62,651 nt of DNA from a virus, in IMG/VR virus record IMGVR_UViG_3300010396_000012, positions 1 through 62,651 of that record; one strand, given 5' to 3'. Both the position numbers and the translations under genes were made by a program. The notes beneath the pieces were generated by a model. The model did not search any database. It saw nothing but the letters and a program-made list of their open reading frames with translations, and was not told where the DNA came from. Of the stretch, positions 2,242-46,500 are shown one piece after another. Position 1 is the first letter of the stretch. Each line of letters begins with the position of its first letter.

Positions 2242-2906
2242 TACAGAATCCTCGTGGGCTGGAAGTCCGCCGACTTCACCTTTCGATTTGTGCCCGCCAG
2301 CGCACGCCCGTTCAATACGGCTCGCTCGTACTGCCGATCAAACGTGCGTGACAGCGATTCATTCGTCCACGGCTTATTGGGGATCAGGAGCGCGTCCGCC
2401 ACTACACCCCGGCCCCACGCCTGCCCGAAGGGCACCACGAGGCTTGCCGGGGCTTGCATGACCGTTTCCAGCGGCAGGAGCATCACCAGCACCTTGATAC
2501 CGCACGGACGATCCACGGACGGCGTGCAGCGCAGCCGGATAATGTTGTTGTCGATGACATCGTACGCGATAGGCTGGCGGAAGTGGCCGTAGCCTTCCCC
2601 ATACCAGTACCACGGATTCGGAGAGTGCGGTTCTTCCATACCCATGATGGCGTGGATATGGTAACCATCAGGTGCTTCTAGCTGATAGTCGCGTACGCCT
2701 GACTGATAAGGAATCTTTACTTCCGTCTGTAGCAGACGTGTGCGTCGAGCAAAGTCAGTGTATTTCTGACGGAGCATATCCAACGCCATCGAGTGCGGAA
2801 GTTCCGGTACGATAGGCATGATATGCCGCAGCAACGGAGTGAGAGGTTCAAGGTCTTCAAACCCCTCATAGACTGCACTAGCGACACTGATATTAGGCAC
2901 GGTCAT
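2241..2906 (-). CDS. Head-tail adaptor-like protein 2
   Basis: A 221-residue protein with a leading segment (PLLRHIMPIVPELPHSMALD) followed by a YQSGVRDYQLEAPDGYHIHA stretch typical of podovirus head-completion or adaptor proteins that sit beneath the portal. It overlaps the upstream adaptor-like gene by 4 bases. Similar size and general layout to its neighbour suggest the two form successive rings of the tail connector. Assignment is by position and overall sequence style. Confidence 0.55.
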   Translation of the reverse strand: MTVPNISVASAVYEGFEDLEPLTPLLRHIMPIVPELPHSMALDMLRQKYTDFARRTRLLQTEVKIPYQSGVRDYQLEAPDGYHIHAIMGMEEPHSPNPWYWYGEGYGHFRQPIAYDVIDNNIIRLRCTPSVDRPCGIKVLVMLLPLETVMQAPASLVVPFGQAWGRGVVADALLIPNKPWTNESLSRTFDRQYERAVLNGRALAGTNRKVKSADFQPTRIL

Positions 2907-8993: not shown

Positions 8994-9525
8994 TGTATGC
9001 TGCTCGTTCTGCGTTAATTACGTCCTGCAGCGCAGTTATTTTGGCGTCGAGCAATTGCTCCCGCTTATCGGCTTCATCACCCACTCGAACAACAGCGATT
9101 GCAGTTTGCACGCGGTCTTCAAGGGCTTGGGTGGCGGCTGCATCAGCGGCGCGGGAAGCGACGGTAGCTGCGCTCCCTGCACTACCACTGGGGCAGGTTT
9201 CGGCGGCTGTGTTGCGCAACTTGAGAGCGCCAGCAGACATACTAGCAGAAATAGAGTCGGAAACGCTAGGAGTTTGCGCATCACGGATAGCCTCGTACTT
9301 GGCATTAGCGTCGGCAACCTGTTTCTTGAGGTCGTCCGTCTTTAACTTGTTGTCGGCAACTACTTTCGCTGCAGCCGCCTTATCGACCTGCACCTGTAGG
9401 TTGTACTTCGCTTCTAGCGCTACTTTGCCAGAGTGACCCCACTCGTACCCCAAAATAACAACGCCGCCCGTGTATAGGGCGGCAAAGAGGATACCTGCAA
9501 TGAGCAGGATAATGTCTTTCTTCAC
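8971..9525 (-). CDS. Rz: Rz-like inner-membrane spanin (i-spanin)
   Basis: A 184-residue protein with a single N-terminal membrane anchor (DIILLIAGILFAALYTGGVV) followed by a long Ala-, Lys- and Asp-rich coiled coil, the classic layout of i-spanins. It bridges to the outer-membrane partner to fuse the envelope membranes in the last lysis step. Its gene contains the Rz1 gene in another frame and overlaps the holin candidate by 4 bases. It is placed in the lysis cassette between terminase and portal. Confidence 0.8.
   Translation of the reverse strand: MKKDIILLIAGILFAALYTGGVVILGYEWGHSGKVALEAKYNLQVQVDKAAAAKVVADNKLKTDDLKKQVADANAKYEAIRDAQTPSVSDSISASMSAGALKLRNTAAETCPSGSAGSAATVASRAADAAATQALEDRVQTAIAVVRVGDEADKREQLLDAKITALQDVINAERAAYNAKYSQH
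9036..9281 (-). CDS. Rz1: Rz1-like outer-membrane lipoprotein spanin (o-spanin), nested in Rz
   Basis: An 81-residue protein encoded wholly inside the Rz gene in a different frame. It begins MRKLLAFPTLFLLVC and carries a lipobox (LALSSC) with Cys at about residue 22, then a Pro-rich stretch (PPKPAPVV, PPPKPLK) as in lambda-type Rz1. After lipidation it would pair with the i-spanin across the periplasm. The nested arrangement is typical and supports a Gram-negative host. Confidence 0.75.
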   Translation of the reverse strand: MRKLLAFPTLFLLVCLLALSSCATQPPKPAPVVVQGAQLPSLPAPLMQPPPKPLKTACKLQSLLFEWVMKPISGSNCSTPK

Positions 9526-9854
9526 GACGGCGTACTCGGCGGATTCGATGCCTTCACGGCAACTTCCAGTCGCTGTACCTGCTGCGTCAGTGCTGCGACT
9601 TGGTTCTTCAACTGGTTAATGGTGTCGAACGCAGCGTCTCGATCCTTCATGTATTGGTCAGCACGAGCGCGTTCTGTGTTGAGCTGATCCGTCAACATCC
9701 GGATCACGTCAAGCTGTGCATTCGTTCCCGCTTGCCCCAACTTGCTCGAACTGAACCACTTCCAGAAAGCTATACCTGCTGTACCTACTGCACCACCCGC
9801 AGCGACGAACCATCCGATAAGGTTGTTATCCGGTGGAGGAAGTGCTGCTGCCAT
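9522..9854 (-). CDS. Holin candidate: one membrane span plus coiled coil
   Basis: The start at 9854 (MAAALPPPDNNLIGW) is chosen because it overlaps the endolysin gene by 29 bases and removes an implausible N-terminal extension. The 110-residue protein has one clear transmembrane segment (about 13-32, GWFVAAGGAVGTAGIAFW) and then a long coiled coil (LTDQLNTERARADQYMKD). Position between endolysin and spanins points to a holin or pinholin. It could alternatively be an accessory lysis protein. Confidence 0.55.
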   Translation of the reverse strand: MAAALPPPDNNLIGWFVAAGGAVGTAGIAFWKWFSSSKLGQAGTNAQLDVIRMLTDQLNTERARADQYMKDRDAAFDTINQLKNQVAALTQQVQRLEVAVKASNPPSTPS

Positions 9855-18175: not shown

Positions 18176-18355
18176 ATGAAAGCATTCTTGAGGCGGCATG
18201 TGCATATCATATGCGCAATGGTTGTAGGTGAAGCAATCACCATAGCGTTTTTCCTACCGGATCGCTGGTACTGGGCGTTTCCGCTGGGCATTGTGCTGGG
18301 TGCTATTTCAGGGCAACTTAAAGCCCGCGATGTAAGGAGACAAAGCCGTGGCTAA
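18176..18355 (+). CDS. Small two-span membrane protein
   Basis: A 59-residue frame from ATG 18176 (GGAGGAG a few bases upstream) to TAA 18353. It has a basic N-terminus (FLRRHVHII), one hydrophobic segment (CAMVVGEAITIAFFL), a short WYW turn and a second segment (AFPLGIVLGAISG), then a basic tail. It overlaps the amidoligase gene by 8 bases, suggesting coupled synthesis, and might place that enzyme's product at the membrane. Function unknown. Confidence 0.65.
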   Translation: MKAFLRRHVHIICAMVVGEAITIAFFLPDRWYWAFPLGIVLGAISGQLKARDVRRQSRG

Positions 18356-19529
18356 ACTGACAAAACTAAACACGACCATGGGTATCGAGTTGACGTTCAT
18401 GCCGCCGTGTCTGCAGGAAATGGTCGAGGCGATTAATCCTGAGTGCGACAGGGAAGTCGATGACGTTGTGCATCCGTTCGCATGCAACCATATCTGCAGT
18501 GGCTATGCGCTGGTGCTAGGCAAGGTCATGCAAGCACGCAACATTCCAACATGGGATGGCGTCAAGACCGATCCCGGCTGCGTCGAGGTACCAACGAAAC
18601 CGTACGGTACATTGAATGGTCTGGTGAAAGCCAGTCGCCAGATATGGAAGTGCGCAAGCAGTATCGGACTGGTGCCGAAGCTGGACAGCTTTAATGGCGG
18701 CGGCGCGCATATCCATACCGGCATCATGGGCAAGACACCAGAGCAGCGCGTCGAGTACGTCGGCCGCATGGCGTTGTTCGCGGCACAGAATCCATGGCTG
18801 AGTTGGGCGTTCGTCGGGCTGGTGGACGACATCAATGCTGAGCCGATTGCCATGCGGCATATCGTGTGCGTTGAACCGACCACGCGTGAGCAGTTGCAGG
18901 ATATGATTGCCGAACGCAAGGCATCGCTGGCAACGCATGAATTGCTGCTGCACGGCAAGGACGGCTGCTTTAGCGGAGCTATGGGGTACAGTAAACGTCT
19001 GCGTTGCCAAGCGAAGATTGATAGTTCACGCGCACATCTTATGCGGGCGAAGCTTGCCTTGCATCGGTTCCGTGACAGCGAGTTGGCCGTGACCGACTTG
19101 CGGATGCCGCGCCATGGCAAAGACAACGTGATGCGCTGGGCGGACTATGGCCCGAACGGAACGATTGAGTTCCGTGCGTTTGAAATGCCGGAAGACATCG
19201 CCACGCTGACGCGCTACATCAAGCTGGCCGATGCCATTGTGGGTTACGTGGCGCAGCAATCGTGGACGCATGTTGCCCTGCCGGAGATACCGACCAACGA
19301 ACAACAGAAGGCCATGACGTGGCGGCAACGGCGCGACGGATTCAACGCCATGCTGGTGAAGCTGGGGCTTAACCCGGCCGACTACAAAGCCGAGCGTGTG
19401 CAGATCGCCTTGCGTATGCGGTTCTACCGACCCAAGCCTGTCGCGCCGCTGATAGCGTCGATGGACGCGGCGATAGCCGGCACGCGGGCTGCACTGCGCG
19501 GCGAGGACAATTACGAACTGGCCGCTTGA
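18348..19529 (+). CDS. Amidoligase-like enzyme (glutamine synthetase fold)
   Basis: A 393-residue protein with a GTG start. It shows the amidoligase (COOH-NH2 ligase) signature: MGIELTF (about 11-17), a TDPGCVEVPTKP strand (about 75-86), GGGAHIHTGI (about 117-126) and GTIEFRAFEMP (about 273-283). These are the ATP- and metal-binding elements of the glutamine-synthetase fold. Such enzymes join a carboxylate to an amine with ATP. Candidate targets include peptidoglycan peptides, small peptides or modified nucleotides; none is shown by the sequence. It ends the ATPase operon. Confidence 0.7.
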   Translation: MAKLTKLNTTMGIELTFMPPCLQEMVEAINPECDREVDDVVHPFACNHICSGYALVLGKVMQARNIPTWDGVKTDPGCVEVPTKPYGTLNGLVKASRQIWKCASSIGLVPKLDSFNGGGAHIHTGIMGKTPEQRVEYVGRMALFAAQNPWLSWAFVGLVDDINAEPIAMRHIVCVEPTTREQLQDMIAERKASLATHELLLHGKDGCFSGAMGYSKRLRCQAKIDSSRAHLMRAKLALHRFRDSELAVTDLRMPRHGKDNVMRWADYGPNGTIEFRAFEMPEDIATLTRYIKLADAIVGYVAQQSWTHVALPEIPTNEQQKAMTWRQRRDGFNAMLVKLGLNPADYKAERVQIALRMRFYRPKPVAPLIASMDAAIAGTRAALRGEDNYELAA

Positions 19530-19558
19530 AATCCTTTGGAGCAAACACTACTATAGGT

Positions 19559-19600
19559 TCCGCAGATGATGCAGGCTAGAATGTACTGCGGAGTTTGTTA
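19559..19600 (+). terminator. Terminator-like hairpin after the amidoligase
   Basis: TCCGCAG (19559-19565) and CTGCGGA (19586-19592) form a 7-base perfect stem with a 20-base loop, followed by GTTTGTTAATTT. A moderate rho-independent terminator that would end the operon before the promoter at 19656. Confidence 0.5.
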
Positions 19601-19655
19601 ATTTGTGCGGGGCTATCACGCAACAAAAATCACAGGTTCAAACGCAACAAGGTAG

Positions 19656-20594: not shown

Positions 20595-20610
20595 TTGAGT
20601 CGATAATTAA

Positions 20611-20901
20611 ATGCCCTTTCGCACGCTAGGTTCAATCAACGATGTTTGGGTGTACGATAATCCCGACACTATGAAGCGTGAGTTATTCCGCAATGGGCAT
20701 TTAATTATCCACTTCCCTGAAGTAGCGTTTGAGTTTGACGGATACTATTACAAGTGGTATCCGCATGGCGAGAACAAATATATCGAGGAAATGTATATCG
20801 AGGACATGCGGGAGCTTGGGCCGTTCGATGAAGGTCATGAGTGGGGTGACCGCATTCACAAACCCTACGATCCACTGGCGACAGAACTTTGGAGTGAGTG
20901 A
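20611..20901 (+). CDS. Hypothetical protein, 96 residues
   Basis: A 96-residue protein rich in Tyr, Trp, Glu and His (EFDGYYYKWYPHGEN, FDEGHEWGD). No clear ribosome binding site precedes the ATG. It starts 17 bases after the hairpin and its stop overlaps the next start. Family not recognised. Confidence 0.5.
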   Translation: MPFRTLGSINDVWVYDNPDTMKRELFRNGHLIIHFPEVAFEFDGYYYKWYPHGENKYIEEMYIEDMRELGPFDEGHEWGDRIHKPYDPLATELWSE

Positions 20902-23130: not shown

Positions 23131-23162
23131 AGCAAGGGCGCATCACTGCGCCCTTGCTTTTG
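23131..23162 (+). terminator. Rho-independent terminator
   Basis: AGCAAGGGCGCA and TGCGCCCTTGCT form a 12-base stem with a 5-base loop (TCACT), followed by TTTTG. Textbook intrinsic terminator after the gene at 22730-23119. Confidence 0.85.
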
Positions 23163-23181
23163 CCCGTTGTTGTAGTATTAT
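23154..23181 (+). promoter_or_regulatory. Sigma70-type promoter overlapping the terminator
   Basis: TTGCTT, 16 bases, TATTAT. The -35 lies in the descending arm and T-tract of the preceding terminator. It would drive the gene at 23229. Confidence 0.45.
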
Positions 23182-23228
23182 CTACAAACCCATTGCGCCG
23201 CGCTCGCGGCCTGTCTAAGGTGACCCCT

Positions 23229-23582
23229 ATGAATGACGAGACCCAAGCCCCACAGAACGGCACCGAAGGCGATCCCGCGCCGACCGAGGCCCAAGGCACG
23301 ACCACGCTTGACCTGACCGCTGCAGATGCCGCACAGGGCGCTGGCTTGCCTGTTGTCGAGGTAGCTCCGGAAGCTGTCAACGAAGCCGTATCGCTGACGC
23401 ATACCGAGAGCGGGGTGGTGACGAACCTTTCCCCGACCGCAACTACCATCCCCGCAGGCGTTCATGGCGTGGTGTCGAAGCTGGAAAGCGAACTGCATGG
23501 TGAGTTCGCCAAAGGCCAGACATCTTTCCTGACGTGGATGGGCAGCATCATCGCCGAGTTCAAAGCCCATCTAAAGATGTAG
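23229..23582 (+). CDS. Hypothetical low-complexity protein, 117 residues
   Basis: A 117-residue protein. The first 70 residues are Thr-, Ala-, Glu- and Pro-rich and probably disordered (MNDETQAPQNGTEGDPAPT); the end is helical (VHGVVSKLESELHGEFAKGQ, FLTWMGSIIAEFKAHLKM). Has its own promoter and precedes the structured RNA candidate. No family recognised. Confidence 0.55.
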   Translation: MNDETQAPQNGTEGDPAPTEAQGTTTLDLTAADAAQGAGLPVVEVAPEAVNEAVSLTHTESGVVTNLSPTATTIPAGVHGVVSKLESELHGEFAKGQTSFLTWMGSIIAEFKAHLKM

Positions 23583-23603
23583 GTGGGTGCGTTGTCGCAA
23601 GAC

Positions 23604-23690
23604 CGTAGCGTCGGCGGATTACCCTGCTGACACAGGCGTTTCCTAGGTGCTGGTCAGAGCATCCGTGAGGAGACAACCGCCGACGTTACG
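23604..23690 (+). ncRNA. Candidate structured RNA, hairpin 1
   Basis: Arms 23604-23617 (CGTAGCGTCGGCGG) and 23677-23690 (CCGCCGACGTTACG) pair at 13 of 14 positions, with G-U possible at the odd one in RNA. The enclosed 59 bases contain a further GCTGAC/GTCAG pairing. It lies in a gene-free gap of 245 bases. No known riboswitch or ribozyme consensus was recognised. It could be a 3' structure of the preceding gene or a separate RNA. Confidence 0.5.
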
Positions 23691-23793
23691 ATTTAATACT
23701 CCGCTGCACCGTCCACGATTACGTGTACTCCCCTCCCCGCGCGTAGCTATGGATGCCTTACGGCTGTAAAGGGTGCAGCGAACTATTAAATCG
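23689..23793 (+). ncRNA. Candidate structured RNA, hairpin 2
   Basis: Arms 23689-23710 and 23772-23793 pair at 20 of 22 positions (CGATTTAATA with TATTAAATCG, then CGCTGCACC with GGTGCAGCG), closing a 61-base loop with a small CACG/CGTG hairpin inside. It begins where hairpin 1 ends, so the two could stack end to end. A stem this long in 245 non-coding bases is unlikely by chance. Confidence 0.55.
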
Positions 23794-23827
23794 AGGGCTA
23801 TCACGATGGAAACGACTGGTCTTTAAT

Positions 23828-24070
23828 ATGCCACGCAAAGAACCACGCGACTACGAAGCCGAGTACGATCAGTACCATGGCAAGCAAGCGCAGATTGACA
23901 ACCGGAATCAGCGGAACAAGGCTGTTCGCAAGTTGAACCGCGAAGGCAAAGCCAAGTACGATGGCAAGGAAGTCGATCATAAACGTGGAGCCAAGAAAGG
24001 CGCAAAGCTTTCCAACGCAGATGCTAACTTGCGTGTGGTCAAGAAAGTCACTAACCGGAGAAAGGGATGA
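23828..24070 (+). CDS. Small basic HNH-like protein
   Basis: An 80-residue basic protein (MPRKEPRDYEAEYDQYHGK). The C-terminal half has KEVDHKRGAKKGAKLS and DANLRVVKKVTNRR, matching the D-H ... N-L-R-V ... N-R part of HNH nucleases but lacking the usual zinc Cys pairs. I know similar 80-90 residue proteins in many phages annotated as HNH-related. Nicking of DNA or a structural DNA-binding role are both possible. Confidence 0.55.
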   Translation: MPRKEPRDYEAEYDQYHGKQAQIDNRNQRNKAVRKLNREGKAKYDGKEVDHKRGAKKGAKLSNADANLRVVKKVTNRRKG

Positions 24071-40582: not shown

Positions 40583-43468
40583 GTGTCGGATCAAGAGCGG
40601 TTCTTCCGCTCCGTATTATCGGAGCAGGGGAAGCCATGTTTGGCATGGCTTGTCCAAGGTAATCCCAAACCATATTTCAAACACAAAGTCTTCGATACCA
40701 TCGAAGACTTGCTTGAGGCGCTTGGTCGGATTAATTTCACCACGTACAATTACTACTTCTGCGTGTCTACGCTTCGGGAGCGTTCCGTAACTGACGGCGA
40801 TAAGAACCGTGTGCGTACCCAAAAGAACACGGAATTGACGCGGTGCTTTGTACTGGACGTAGACATTCGGCCGGACGAGGAAGACCACTACCACACATTC
40901 GATGAAGCCTACGAAGGTGTCGAACAAGTACGTACTGCATTTAATCTTCCGCAACCCATCATCGTCAACAGTGGGTTTGGGTTGCATGTCTACTGGCCGA
41001 TGGCTGATGGCATCGAATCCAAGACGTGGGTTAAGTTTGGGCAGAAGTTCAAGCGGGCTATCCAGTTTGTGGCACCGAAAGTGGTTGCCGATGGTACCCG
41101 CGTCGCGGACAGTGCAGGCGTACTTCGCGTCCCACTATCGTTTAATCTCAAGTCGGAACCACCCACAGCCGTTGAAATTGTTCAGTGGCACGACGACTTC
41201 CTAGACTTCTCGACGTTCAGCGCCACGCTGAGTCGGCTGGTTAAGGACGAGAATGAAACCCGCACCGTAGACATCGGCACCACTGTCTACGAATCTGGCC
41301 CGGTCGAACTGTCGGCTGTCGCGAAAAAGTGTGCGTGGGTACGCGCCTATCTCAAGGATAAGGCCAGCGCCAGCGAGCCGGAATGGTATGCGGTACTCGG
41401 CCTTGCACCGTACATGGTGCACACGAAGCCGGACGGTACCCAGCTTGTCCGCGAGAAAGTCGCCCATGCGCTGTCCAACGGCCATCCCGGCTACGATCCC
41501 GAAGCGACCTATCTCAAGTATATCCAAGTCTCCACGGCGCAGACCGGGCCGACGACGTGTGCGCGCTTCGCGTCGATTAACCCCGCACGCTGCGAAGGCT
41601 GCCCGTTCCGAGGGTCGATCAAGACTCCCTTGCAAGTCGCTGCGCTGGACGTACCGGCCACCGCGCCGGTCGTGGTGGAAGCGGCTACGCAGGACGAGGA
41701 AGGCAATACTGCTGTAGAGGAAGTCACGATCCCACTGCCACCTGAGCCGTATTTCCGAGGGGAGAATGGCGGCGTGTTCGTGCGAACAAAGGTCAAGAAT
41801 GAGGAAGGCGGATGGGACTCCATCATTCAGCGTATCTACGACTACGACTTCTATCCCGTCAAGCGTCTACGCACCGAAGCTACTGAATCCGAAGCTACCG
41901 AATGCCATCTATGGCTTCCGCAAGATGGCCTGAAAAAGTTCCGACTTCCATCCGGCTTGTTGGCTGAGTCCAAGAAACTCAATACATTCCTGTCTGATAA
42001 AGGCGTGGTCGCTGAGTTCAATAAATCGGCCGGCGTCACGAAGTATCTGGTTGACTACATAAGGTTTCTACAAATGAATAATCGAGCAGACATCGAGTTC
42101 TCACGGTTTGGTTGGCGCGACGCATTGAGCGCTGATCCCAAGTTCGTCGTCAGCAATGGCTACTATGATCGAGCAGGTACGTTGGTTAAATCAGGCGTCG
42201 CAGCTAACCTCAAGGAAGCGGCGAAAGCTATCTCCGAACGCGGCTCCATATCCAAGTGGAAGGAGGGTTTCAATGTCTACAATCATGTACCTAACTCTGA
42301 TCCTTACATCCTTGCTAGCTTGTTGGGCTTCGCAGCACCACTTATGGCTCTCACTGAGTATTCTGGTGTGTTATATAACATTGTGGGGCATAGTGCTGCG
42401 GGCAAATCGACTGCTTTGAAGTTGATGACAAGCGTGTGGGGTGAACCGAATCCCGAACACATTTTGATTAATGACACTGACAATGCCATCTACAACTTCA
42501 TCGGCTACCTTAGCTCCATCCCGGTAGCGTTTGACGAAATCACCAACATGGAGCCGCAGCGGCTATCCAGTTTCCTGCTGAGCTTCACAGGCGGACGCGG
42601 CAAAATGCGCGCCACACGCGACGGCCAGAACCGTACCAATGAAGTCTTTTGGGACACCATCATTTGCTCCACCAGTAATTCATGGCTGTACACGAAGCTA
42701 ATGGAAGCACGGCAAGGCTACAACGCCGAACAGACCCGCGTGTTTGAACTCGAAGTCCAGCCATCGCAAGACGCCTACCGTGGCATCATCGACCGCTCCA
42801 TCCAACTGGTGAACGAGAACTACGGTATTGCCGGCCGTACTTTCTTGGAGTATATAATTCCCCGACTCACGAAGATTAAACCCATGCTCGACCAAGCCCA
42901 CGCCACCGTCATGAGCATGGGCCTGCGCAACCACGAACGGTTTTGGGGAGCCATGCTGTCCTGCGTGTTGGTCAGCGGCAAGATCGCCCGCGACAAGCTG
43001 CATCTGCACGATTACGACGTGGAAGGTCTCGTCCATCGCTTGGTGACCGGCGTCGAACGCGTACGCGCGAACATGGCGTCCAGTGCCAGCGAGCCGGTGT
43101 CCATCATCGCGGAGTTCTTGAACACGAATCTCGGCGCGACGCTACGCTTCAAGGATGGTCAGATTGACCTTGCTACGCTGAACAACAATTTGAACGCTGT
43201 CAAGATTCGTATGGAAGCCGAAGGCGGTATTGTCGTACGTGCCTTTATTTCAGCACAAGCGCTCAAAGAGTATTGCCAAATGCGGCGCATCGACTTTGGC
43301 TGGCTACGGCGTGAACTGTCCGATGCTGGCGTACTTACCAACATGAACCTGCAGAAGCGGCTCACAACAGGTAGTAACCTGCCGGCCGTCAACGCCAAGT
43401 GCTGGGAACTGAACATGACGCACACACGTATCATCGGTGTGCTTGACCAGATTGAAGCGACTGAATAG
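40583..43468 (+). CDS. PrimPol-helicase: archaeo-eukaryotic-type primase fused to a DUF927-like helicase
   Basis: A 961-residue GTG-started protein. The N-terminal third is an AEP-type primase: CFVLDVDIRPDEE with D92 and D94, SGFGLHVYWP (about 131-140) and DSAGVLRVPLSFNLK. A Cys motif (RFASINPARCEGCPF) lies near residue 340. The C-terminal half has Walker A GHSAAGKST (about 601-609) and Walker B VAFDEITNM, as in DUF927/D5-type viral helicases. It would make primers and unwind DNA at the fork, replacing a T7 gp4. It is the last forward gene. Confidence 0.8.
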   Translation: MSDQERFFRSVLSEQGKPCLAWLVQGNPKPYFKHKVFDTIEDLLEALGRINFTTYNYYFCVSTLRERSVTDGDKNRVRTQKNTELTRCFVLDVDIRPDEEDHYHTFDEAYEGVEQVRTAFNLPQPIIVNSGFGLHVYWPMADGIESKTWVKFGQKFKRAIQFVAPKVVADGTRVADSAGVLRVPLSFNLKSEPPTAVEIVQWHDDFLDFSTFSATLSRLVKDENETRTVDIGTTVYESGPVELSAVAKKCAWVRAYLKDKASASEPEWYAVLGLAPYMVHTKPDGTQLVREKVAHALSNGHPGYDPEATYLKYIQVSTAQTGPTTCARFASINPARCEGCPFRGSIKTPLQVAALDVPATAPVVVEAATQDEEGNTAVEEVTIPLPPEPYFRGENGGVFVRTKVKNEEGGWDSIIQRIYDYDFYPVKRLRTEATESEATECHLWLPQDGLKKFRLPSGLLAESKKLNTFLSDKGVVAEFNKSAGVTKYLVDYIRFLQMNNRADIEFSRFGWRDALSADPKFVVSNGYYDRAGTLVKSGVAANLKEAAKAISERGSISKWKEGFNVYNHVPNSDPYILASLLGFAAPLMALTEYSGVLYNIVGHSAAGKSTALKLMTSVWGEPNPEHILINDTDNAIYNFIGYLSSIPVAFDEITNMEPQRLSSFLLSFTGGRGKMRATRDGQNRTNEVFWDTIICSTSNSWLYTKLMEARQGYNAEQTRVFELEVQPSQDAYRGIIDRSIQLVNENYGIAGRTFLEYIIPRLTKIKPMLDQAHATVMSMGLRNHERFWGAMLSCVLVSGKIARDKLHLHDYDVEGLVHRLVTGVERVRANMASSASEPVSIIAEFLNTNLGATLRFKDGQIDLATLNNNLNAVKIRMEAEGGIVVRAFISAQALKEYCQMRRIDFGWLRRELSDAGVLTNMNLQKRLTTGSNLPAVNAKCWELNMTHTRIIGVLDQIEATE

Positions 43469-43495
43469 TTACTTGCGGCACGTCTACGTGCTTTT

Positions 43496-43524
43496 GGCCC
43501 ACTTTCGAGTGGGCCTCTTTTTAT
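43496..43524. terminator. Bidirectional terminator between the convergent blocks
   Basis: GGCCCACTTTCGAGTGGGCC (43496-43515) forms an 8-base stem with a 4-base loop. TCTTTTTAT follows on the forward strand and an A/T-rich stretch (AAAAGCACG) flanks the other side. It ends the forward block after the PrimPol gene and the reverse block after the giant protein, whose stop codon is at 43521-43523. Confidence 0.85.
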
Positions 43525-46500
43525 GGCATCTTGTCGGTTACAGAGTCCAGTGTACGGCGCAGCTTCGAGTCGATCTGCTTCATCTGTAGCTCACGTCCTG
43601 TAGCACTAATGAACTTGTTGGCTTGCAGTGCTTTCATTTCCTGCGCACGCTGACCCGCTGCCGACTGCAGCACACTATAAAGCTGGCGCTGTTTCTGCAT
43701 ATCCGGATCACGCGCCACGATAAGGTCGGCCTGCTGCTTGGCCTGTTCAGGCGACATACCACTACTAACCGCATGGTCTACGATAGCGTTGTAGCGCTTG
43801 TTCGCGTTGTCCAACTGGCCCAAGGTATCGTAGAGTTGGCGCTGCTGATAGAAGTCCTGATCCTTAACCAGACCCGGAATAGGCAGCGCCGTCTTGGGAG
43901 TCATGCTCTGCGACTCAAGCTGCGAAATCAGCGTGCCAGCCCACTGACCACCGTAGTTGCGCACCATGTACTGGATGTCTTCTGGATAGAAGTCGATAGT
44001 ACCGTTGGTCAAACTATTCAACCACTGCGCCTGTTCCTTGAACACATCCGGCGTACTCTTACGTCCCGAGTCGGCCGCGAAGTGGCCTTTACGAGCATCA
44101 CCATGGATAGGTACGCCCCAGTGGTTGACGTTATTAGCGATGTCTTCTAGCGGCTGCACGACCGTTGGCGTGATAGCACCTTTCGCTAATGAGCCGAGAA
44201 AACCCAGTGGTGTATGATCGACTGAGCCACCTGTCTCGATAGCGGAGTTACGCGCTACGAGCTTTGCGTAGGTGTCGGCCGCATCTTCTGGACTGACATG
44301 GCCGGCAGCGACAGCGGCCATCAAGGCACCGGGAGCCATCATGATCTGCGGCAGACCAAGACCCATCTGCCATCCGGCCACCTGATCGCCTATCGGGAAC
44401 AGTACCCGCGTAGCAATCGTTTCGGGCAGCATCTTGGCGATGTTGTCTTTACCGTCCTCGTCCTGACCCAGCATCATGCTGGATGTCATGTACCCTGCCG
44501 CACCGAGCATGCTGTAGAAGCCCATCCACTTCGCCATCTTCGGGAAGTCGTAGCCGCCCGTAGGCTTCACGAACGAGCGACGCATGGCGTCTACGCCGGT
44601 CGCCGCGACGCGGAAGAACGCTTTATAGGCATTGATACGACGACCCTGTACACCGGATTCGCCGTAGTCAAGTACGCGTCGTGCTTCGGCCGCCGCATCG
44701 CGTTCGTCAATACCTTGCTCCACCAACGTACGGAAAGCAGCCACACGAGGAATCTGCGTTACGAAGTCTGCGTAACGATTCGTGTATTTAAGTACCGTGT
44801 TCCAACCTAGCTTGGTCGCATCCCACACACCATCGGCACTACGCGGGATATTGTTGAAACCACCTGTGCCGAGTCGATCCTGAATATCGTTGGTATTAAA
44901 TCCACCGACAAACTCATTGTTACCGCCGAGGCGCATATAGCGCAGCGTCCACGCGGCCCAGCTATTGGGGTCGGCCTTCGCCATCCGTTCCAGTGCCAAG
45001 TGATCGCTTTTCAGGGCCGGCGCAATCTGACGCAACGCGGCAACTGACTTGAGCGCATTCACGCCGTAGCGGGCAAAGAACGGCACCGCTTCCAGTGGAT
45101 TGTCGAAACGTGTGGTCGCCAAGACAGCAGGTACGTACGTCATGTCACGAGCATACGCCGTGAACGTCTGCCACACCGGAGACAATGTGGTCTGGATACG
45201 TGCAATGGCGTTGGTCACTTTACCGACTTGCCGCCCCAGCGGATCGGGTGCAGCGATGTTATTCATCTTCCACAAACCACGCGCCATCTGCGAGTCTTTC
45301 GGGAAGGTAATGACGTAATGCGTACGCCCATCGTGCACCAACACTTGGTTCGGTTCCATCTTCAAGCGTGCGGTGTATTCGCCTGTACTGGCGTTCTTGT
45401 ACCCATCGTGCGGCGTACCCTCCCACGTCTCGATGTCAGCCCCGAGTGCCTTGCGCGCTTTCTTATCGGACACGAGATTATAGAGTGCATCGCCGAGAGT
45501 AGCGTTGGCGTGAGCATTACCTGCCTGCGCCGTGTCAGCATACAGACGGAAGACTGGCGACTCCGAAAAGGTGCTACGTCCCTGCATTGCAGCCATGGTC
45601 GAATTAAGTTTCGCCAACGACAAGTTGCCGTTTTGTGCGATACCCCAAAACGGCGTGTCGGTTTTCTTGGCCGACTTGAGCGGCACGTACCACTTCCACC
45701 CGTAAAGCTTCACCCACGGATCGTCCTTCGACACGACACCGGCGTCCTGCAAACGCTGTGTCTGGCGCTGGCGTGCGCCTTCCATGACCTTATTCAACTC
45801 GGCCATAGAGTTCTGATCCATGCCGTGCTTGAGTTTCAGTTCGTTGAGTTTCTTGTTGATTACATCTATGGGAACATTGTGGTTACGGCCCCACTGCTCC
45901 CAGCCATACTTCATGTCCGACTTCATGGTTTCAAGTTGCTTAGCCGCTACGGCCGGATCGACTTTCAAGTTCTGCACATCATCCAGCAATTTAGCGCGCT
46001 GGATTTCCATGGCAGCCGACTTCATCGGAGCCTGCATCAGCCACGCAGTACGTACACGTTCCAGCCAGTGCGTGTTCTGGAAAAACATATTGATGTTACG
46101 CAGTGAATCATCCATCGTGTTGCCGAAGCGCTGGAAGTTTTTGTTCACCCAATCATGGAATGGCTTGAATACGTCGTAGCTATCCGTCATGTTGTATTCG
46201 GAACGCAGGCCACGCGTACGCGAGATAGCGTAGTCCACGTTGTTGTCGGCGGTAATCTTGACACCAAGACGGCGTAGCCCTTGGAGCGCCATTTCGACGC
46301 CCACATGGGCATTCATTCCTTGTTCGACAACGTGGTTGACGACGCCACTGAACCCACGGGTTTCGGCACTGTTATCGTGTACTGGTTGCGCTTGCGCTTC
46401 CTCGTTGTCATCGCCTTCATCGTCTTCATGAAGTGCGTCATGCAGTTCATCGTTGACTTCACCCTTCCCACGAGGCGATGAAAGCATGCGTTCATTGTAG

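Follow-up and report, generated by a model that had tools for sequence, protein, structure and literature searches.

What does a phage genome encode in a 245-nt gap that holds no credible gene and is nearly filled by two long, abutting hairpins? The gap (23583-23827, with the ATG of the next gene at 23828) lies in a 62,651-base virus record from IMG/VR, the window of this study, and an earlier note had flagged it as a candidate new phage RNA; we compared six genomes, the window and five relatives (G001-G005). The portal and DNA polymerase of the window share only about 25-31% identity with their counterparts in HMO-2011-like podoviruses, Rhizobium phage RHph_TM3_14A and Pseudomonas phage KPP25, and the window therefore represents a distant tailed-phage lineage, its genes running rightward from about 12.8 to 43.5 kb and leftward elsewhere. 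Among bacterial genome contigs, polymerase relatives were only 25-38% identical and give no clue to the host.

Both inverted repeats described in the earlier note were found exactly where it had placed them, with the same pairing counts, and its gene-free gap was verified (Table 1). W1 combines 13 Watson-Crick pairs and one G.U pair with a branched 59-nt interior, and the stem of W2 consists of a 10-bp A+T-rich basal helix, a 3x3 internal loop and a 9-bp G+C helix around a branched interior of 61 nt. Folding against shuffled sequence, which the note had proposed, revealed an excess of stability: as + strand RNA the whole gap reached -96.8 kcal/mol compared with -78.6 +/- 4.6 for dinucleotide shuffles (z -3.9, 0/200 as good), its fold beat all 200 shuffles on either strand, and the single hairpins scored z -5.5 (W1) and -6.0 (W2), again with 0/200 shuffles as good for each. 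Among 3000 shuffles of the gap, an arm pair as good as that of hairpin 1 arose in three and two such pairs in none, and W1 and W2 are two of the three inverted repeats scoring at least 13 in the 62.6-kb window (shuffled genomes, 0-2). In simulated transcripts of 430-740 nt starting at the presumed promoter the hairpins persist, with mean stem pair probabilities of 0.74-0.98. The third strong repeat (window 20602-20709; GATAATTAAATGCCC/GGGCATTTAATTATC, 15 perfect pairs, loop 78) includes the ATG of ORF 20611 in its 5' arm, and no strong repeat of the relatives corresponds to it.

Table 1. Features of the hairpin locus in the window and its relatives.
Feature	Genome	Position	Strand	Description
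Terminator-like hairpin	window	23131..23158	+	12-bp perfect stem, 4-nt loop, T-rich tail; closes the DUF7303-like gene unit
Promoter-like region	window	23154..23187	+	TTGCTT-N16-TATTAT with palindrome TTGTAGTATTATCTACAA
Small upstream gene	window	23229..23582	+	117 aa, no family match; variable, missing in G004 and G005
Hairpin 1 (W1)	window	23604-23690	+	arms 23604-23617/23677-23690, 13/14 paired, 59 nt inside
Hairpin 2 (W2)	window	23689-23793	+	arms 23689-23710/23772-23793, 20/22 paired, 61 nt inside
C-rich motif CTCCCCTCCCC	window	23728..23738	+	apical loop of W2, predicted fully unpaired (probability 1.0)
Conserved stretch GAGGGCTATCACG	window	23793..23805	+	GGGGCTATCACG in relatives; ends just before an ATG
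Possible six-codon leader ORF (METTGL + stop)	window	23806..23826	+	precedes the HNH-like gene; candidate read from the sequence
Small HNH-like gene	window	23828..24070	+	80 aa, PHROG 4590; cross-genome anchor
Hairpin A	G001	43121-43226 (re-oriented genome)		
Hairpins B1, B2, B3	G002	within 43345-43599		
Hairpin C	G003	18235-18358		
Hairpin D	G005	L204 624-742		14-bp arms, loop 80; gap two genes 5' of the HNH-like gene
Hairpin E	G004	L203 about 2335-2431		long stem; counterpart in G005
Module F	G004; G005	L203 2446-2554; L204 32-141		non-coding, GGTGATGGCAAGCYAGCAAGTGCCTWAACACTRGC...TACTAAGACGACTAGG

A coding role for the gap was rejected: ORFs of 40 and 53 aa are present, but the gap sequence is unconserved and they therefore cannot have counterparts. 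ARAGORN found no tRNA in the window, leaving a tRNA-like fold of the branched interiors unsupported; Rfam places tRNA genes 3' of the hairpins in G001 (four) and G002 (two) (L177 13481-17331, L181 13486-16369), unlike the window, which has none. The claim that the gap matches no known RNA family was upheld, as Rfam at the gathering threshold returned nothing for the window, and only tRNAs for positions 1-60000 of G001 and G002, while permissive searches of the window (E up to 10) and of the L203 gap gave chance-level matches only. Nucleotide similarity searches against 50,697 phage records gave none for the window, G002 or G004 gap. The reported lack of a terminator was also borne out, with no T-run after W1 or W2, no U-run after a G+C-rich stem and no terminator call on the + strand of the gap.

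Relatives were picked from IMG/VR with the downstream 80-aa HNH-like protein as anchor, "HNH-like" referring only to its C-terminal D-H...N...N pattern. Three distinct close relatives were obtained, G001 (L002, 62,870 b), G002 (L003 and copies, 62,203 b) and G003 (L084/L124, 63,050 b), whose portals are 69-78% and DNA polymerases 71-75% identical to those of the window; the more distant G004 (L203, polymerase 60% identical) and G005 (L204, 62%) both hold homologues of the HNH-like and DUF7303-like genes. An exact scan of IMG/VR for GGGCTATCACGATG matched at least 119 stretches, most of them, among the matches listed, unrelated sequence, and true relatives were sorted from these by the presence of the HNH-like gene; a scan for TTAATT-N0-14-GGGGCTATCAC returned the known relatives and, among those inspected, hairpin-free sequence. 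The stretches read of the cultivated distant relatives KPP25 and RHph_TM3_14A hold no comparable hairpin array. In G005 the DNA polymerase gene is split (L204 7160-10021), with an intein-like start, CIGSETEVLTLNGWKRI, closing its first part and an intein-like end, NHRFTVRG...VSNC, opening its last. A separate endonuclease-like ORF (9030-9704) lies between the two parts, and the arrangement resembles a fractured gene carrying a split intein.

The homologous gap, upstream of the same HNH-like gene, holds one hairpin in G001, three in G002 and one in G003. Hairpins A, B2 with B3, and C rank first among the inverted repeats of their respective genomes, all three falling in the gap by chance with a probability of about 2e-8, and such hairpins are limited to one locus per genome. 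Only the A+T base (ATTAAT/TATTAA) is shared; above it the arms differ in every genome. Pairing is nevertheless kept although the arm sequences have been replaced, as 77 of 80 cells in W2, A, B3 and C still pair over the 20 positions closest to the base. Since homology of arm positions is not demonstrable, we speak of pairing preserved while the sequence turns over, not of classical covariation. Modules measure 54-126 nt, number one to three per close genome and have no common sequence. The stem nearest the ribosome site spans roughly 18-30 pairs, about two helical turns, in W2, A, B3, C and D, and the outer pairs of W1 (14) and B1 (11) are short of a two-turn helix. In G001 and G003 the stop codon of the upstream gene lies inside the stem base, so that the hairpins occupy all the space from this stop to the ribosome site; in G002 neighbouring hairpins share palindromic AATTAATT ends and an extra gene separates them from the HNH-like gene. 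What is kept, then, is an architecture: the stems are long and A+T-rich at the base, the interior of about 30-80 nt is branched or looped, and most arrays expose at least one C-rich loop. This points to selection that keeps the shape rather than the sequence of an undescribed phage RNA.

That it is the RNA which is selected is indicated by the imperfections of the stems. With arms defined strand-neutrally, 12 of these are G.T and one is A.C (binomial P 0.0017), and because the G.T combinations pair only in + strand RNA, the 12:1 excess places + strand RNA under selection. The + strand also gave the better z-score in eight of nine properly delimited hairpins, W2 being about equal (the G005_E slice, which misses its 5' arm, was left out of this count). 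Together with the excess stability and the pairing kept in relatives, the two points on which the earlier note could have been refuted, this asymmetry strengthens the case for a new phage RNA.

In the more distant genomes the elements E and F, both non-coding, sit in the gap right after the DUF7303-like gene. No DNA segment is better conserved between G004 and G005 than module F (83% over 109 nt, other segments 67-77%), which an exact pattern scan of IMG/VR found in the L203 and L204 contigs only and which has a covarying stem (GCCAG/CTGGC to GCTAG/CTAGC). In the outer stem of E, comparison of G004 with G005 reveals one compensatory change (T.G to G.C) and one broken pair, and E alone is thus not decisive. 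Crossing, mutually exclusive complements occur at L203 2290-2431 and in its G005 counterpart (GCCGGGGA/TCCCCGGC, ACAGGGG/CCCCTGT, GCGCTACGG/CTGTAGCGC and the E outer stem); they lie next to a TTGACA box and could form a pseudoknot or switch. HNH-like homologues of about 50% identity are found in other phages, with hairpins absent beside the 24 distant homologues inspected, and the RNA is therefore a property of this phage group rather than of the HNH-like gene.

Upstream of the array, as in the window, a similar terminator-like hairpin follows the homologous DUF7303-like gene in the relatives. The promoter-like region, a putative promoter read from the sequence, was absent from the consensus-scan matches; a TGTAG..CTAC-type site heads the corresponding unit in G001, G003, G004 and G005, the pattern not being found in G002. 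The palindrome TGTAG-N6-CTACA (window 23170-23187) overlaps promoter-like hexamers where several rightward units begin and is a possible operator of a phage regulator. At the other end, the conserved 11-14-mer stands before the following gene in each of the three close relatives and GGGGCUAUCACG/GAGGGCUAUCACG follows the last hairpin in 4/4 close genomes; the position of 23793..23805 just before an ATG marks it as the ribosome-binding region of the next reading frame. G001 and G003 lack the leader ORF, the ATG behind the motif there being the HNH-like gene's own.

The 11-mer GGGGCTATCAC appears again after another intergenic hairpin (window 19540-19620; G001 around 38700 and G002 around 36370, re-oriented), in G001 following a promoter-like TTGACA-N18-TACAAT. 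As it also lies far from start codons, the motif is more than a ribosome site. It is found, too, inside two apparently homologous coding pairs of G001/G003 (re-oriented 37130/12168 and 62248/37608), once right after the start codon (ATGCGCGGGGCTATCACG). An explanation of the 11-mer as an rRNA complement was rejected, GTGATAGCCCC not being enriched in five bacterial genomes, unlike rRNA copies.

One sequence feature does recur within the hairpins. A UCCCCU/CUCCCCU motif, whose complement is Shine-Dalgarno-like, appears unpaired in five of the six genomes, and its predicted unpaired probability is 0.68-1.0 in each carrier hairpin. Within the four close genomes (251 kb, both strands) TCCCCTCC has three copies, all on the + strand and in the loops of W2, B1 and B2, and TCCCCT is also present in the loop of hairpin A. 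The motif was spotted by inspection before testing, which makes the first P values post hoc; we corrected for this over all 4096 hexamers, and the four TCCCCT copies in the gaps (766 nt), with 0.073 expected, then gave about 0.005. It was replicated once, in the independent pair G004/G005, where the E hairpins of both genomes contain CTCCCCT, which has no other + strand copy in the 64 kb of G005. Altogether the loops of six of ten hairpins carry CUCCCCUCCCC, UCCCCU, UCCCCUCCCCC, CUCCCCUCC or CUCCCCU, and the C-rich loop is absent from the other four, W1, B3, D and C, the last being the sole hairpin of G003.

How does such an array relate to known systems? HEARO/OMEGA RNAs adjoin IscB HNH nucleases. 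The phage array likewise lies 5' of an HNH-type gene, but its neighbour is an 80-aa stand-alone PHROG 4590 protein and not of the IscB type, there is no Rfam match, the relatives of this protein at about 50% identity lack hairpins, and in G002 a gene intervenes. A closer parallel is provided by the rhizobial SmelA075/SmelA099/RS0680a RNAs, whose arrays comprise 2-4 hairpins, expose CCUCCUCCC anti-SD motifs in the loops and vary in stem sequence and number of modules (PMC3927594). The phage array shares with RFMSmelA075/RFMSmelA099 and RS0680a of Alphaproteobacteria a varying number of modules, variable stems and an exposed C-rich loop of anti-SD type; unlike RFMSmelA075/A099, however, its loop reads CUCCCCU(CC) and not CCUCCUCCC and is missing in some modules, the modules are longer, branched inside and virus-borne, and there is one locus per genome where that family has several copies. 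Lacking the CCUCCUCCC loop and multiple genomic copies, it is not a member of the RFMSmelA075/A099 family and may at most work like one. The element is a hairpin-array RNA, a known kind; what is new is its occurrence in a virus, the shift of its loop motif and the branching of its modules.

A small regulatory RNA, suggested by the earlier note among other functions, is a leading, if unproven, reading of these data. We infer that the tandem array is made within a + strand transcript that would also carry gene 23229 and the HNH-like gene, and that host ribonucleases (RNase III, perhaps RNase E) would cut or trim its stems from the mRNA to yield stable small RNAs. The UCCCCU/CUCCCCU loops of these RNAs could then pair with G-rich ribosome-binding sites and lower the translation of the messages concerned, and processing would leave the HNH-like gene its own short leader starting near GGGGCUAUCACG. 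To this model, in which the array is cut from an early or middle mRNA into sRNAs that bind G-rich ribosome sites, we assign a probability of about 0.4. It accounts for the variable number of tandem modules, the free stems and the kept C-rich loops, and has a close precedent in the rhizobial arrays. Against it speak the four hairpins that lack a C-rich loop, the single locus per genome, where the rhizobial family has several, and the rarity of the exact complement AGGGGA before phage gene starts, which leaves the targets hypothetical.

It is also possible, if rather less probable, that the hairpins serve intercistronic RNase III processing or insulation, in which the stems keep the upstream gene apart from the HNH-like operon and are cut, the new mRNA ends are stabilised and the loops are irrelevant. 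The mRNAs of T7 and lambda are known RNase III substrates (PMC9032294), and the T7 early-mRNA hairpins similarly place long stems between phage genes, just 5' of the ribosome-binding region. Consistent with this precedent, the hairpins fill the space from the upstream stop codon to the next ribosome site, their stem sequence is free, as in RNase III substrates, and the near-continuous helix of about two turns typical of RNase III sites is present in the stem nearest the ribosome site in five genomes (W2, A, B3, C and D), but not in W1 and B1 with their 14 and 11 outer pairs. The T7 hairpins occupy many loci, however, and a general processing system would be expected to use several gaps per genome; the phage array uses one, is tandem, larger, branched and unrelated in sequence, its cleavage being hypothetical, and processing as such leaves the branched interiors, tandem modules and C-rich loop motif unexplained. 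The two models are compatible, because the sRNAs could be set free by RNase III cleavage.

The remaining explanations appear weaker. Control in cis of the HNH-like operon, with the C-rich loop forming a pseudoknot with the G-rich ribosome site (GGGG/GAGGG) and restraining translation until a signal or processing intervenes, is unlikely: by inspection, the CCCC or CCCUC of the W2, A and B2 loops can pair with the GGGGCUAUCACG/GAGGGCUAUCACG after the last hairpin, but G003 has no matching loop, a gene intervenes in G002, hairpin D of G005 lies two genes upstream, and nested folding with and without the hairpins alters the accessibility of the site little or inconsistently. The latter result, with the missing terminator, also leaves the large attenuator of the earlier note unsupported. 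Its packaging or replication element belongs with the DNA-level functions (replication origin, packaging site, recombination or mobile inverted repeat), for which the palindromic AATTAATT ends common to neighbouring G002 hairpins and the varying copy number would speak; these we consider very improbable, as the G.T over A.C asymmetry and the better + strand z-scores indicate RNA pairing, the locus is not at a coding-strand switch, and the arms differ between genomes, whereas mobile copies would share them. Least credible of all is an antitermination RNA acting on host RNA polymerase early in the transcript. The HK022 put RNAs are likewise two consecutive stem-loops near the start of an early transcript (PMC9378689), of about 70 nt in all and with sequence similarity between copies; the modules here differ in size (54-126 nt each), in number (one to three), in having no common sequence and in position, the window hairpins beginning over 400 nt downstream of the putative promoter. 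TIGR-Tas and ToxIN-type repeat RNAs were dropped for want of repeated units.

Returning to the preferred model of processed sRNAs, one might tentatively go further and see in these fast-diverging long-stem arrays with anti-Shine-Dalgarno loops a new class of phage riboregulator that reprograms host or phage translation, although we would not call this probable. The quick replacement of the stems may perhaps reflect a host nuclease or a rival element that recognises them. Structured RNAs in virulent phages are poorly mapped, and those with sequence turnover escape homology searches; the constant position, the architecture and, mostly, the loop motif of the array mean that synteny and pairing, not sequence, can be used to find such elements. 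If the loops are indeed anti-SD modules, the phage would steer translation during infection with a device of bacterial stress sRNAs.
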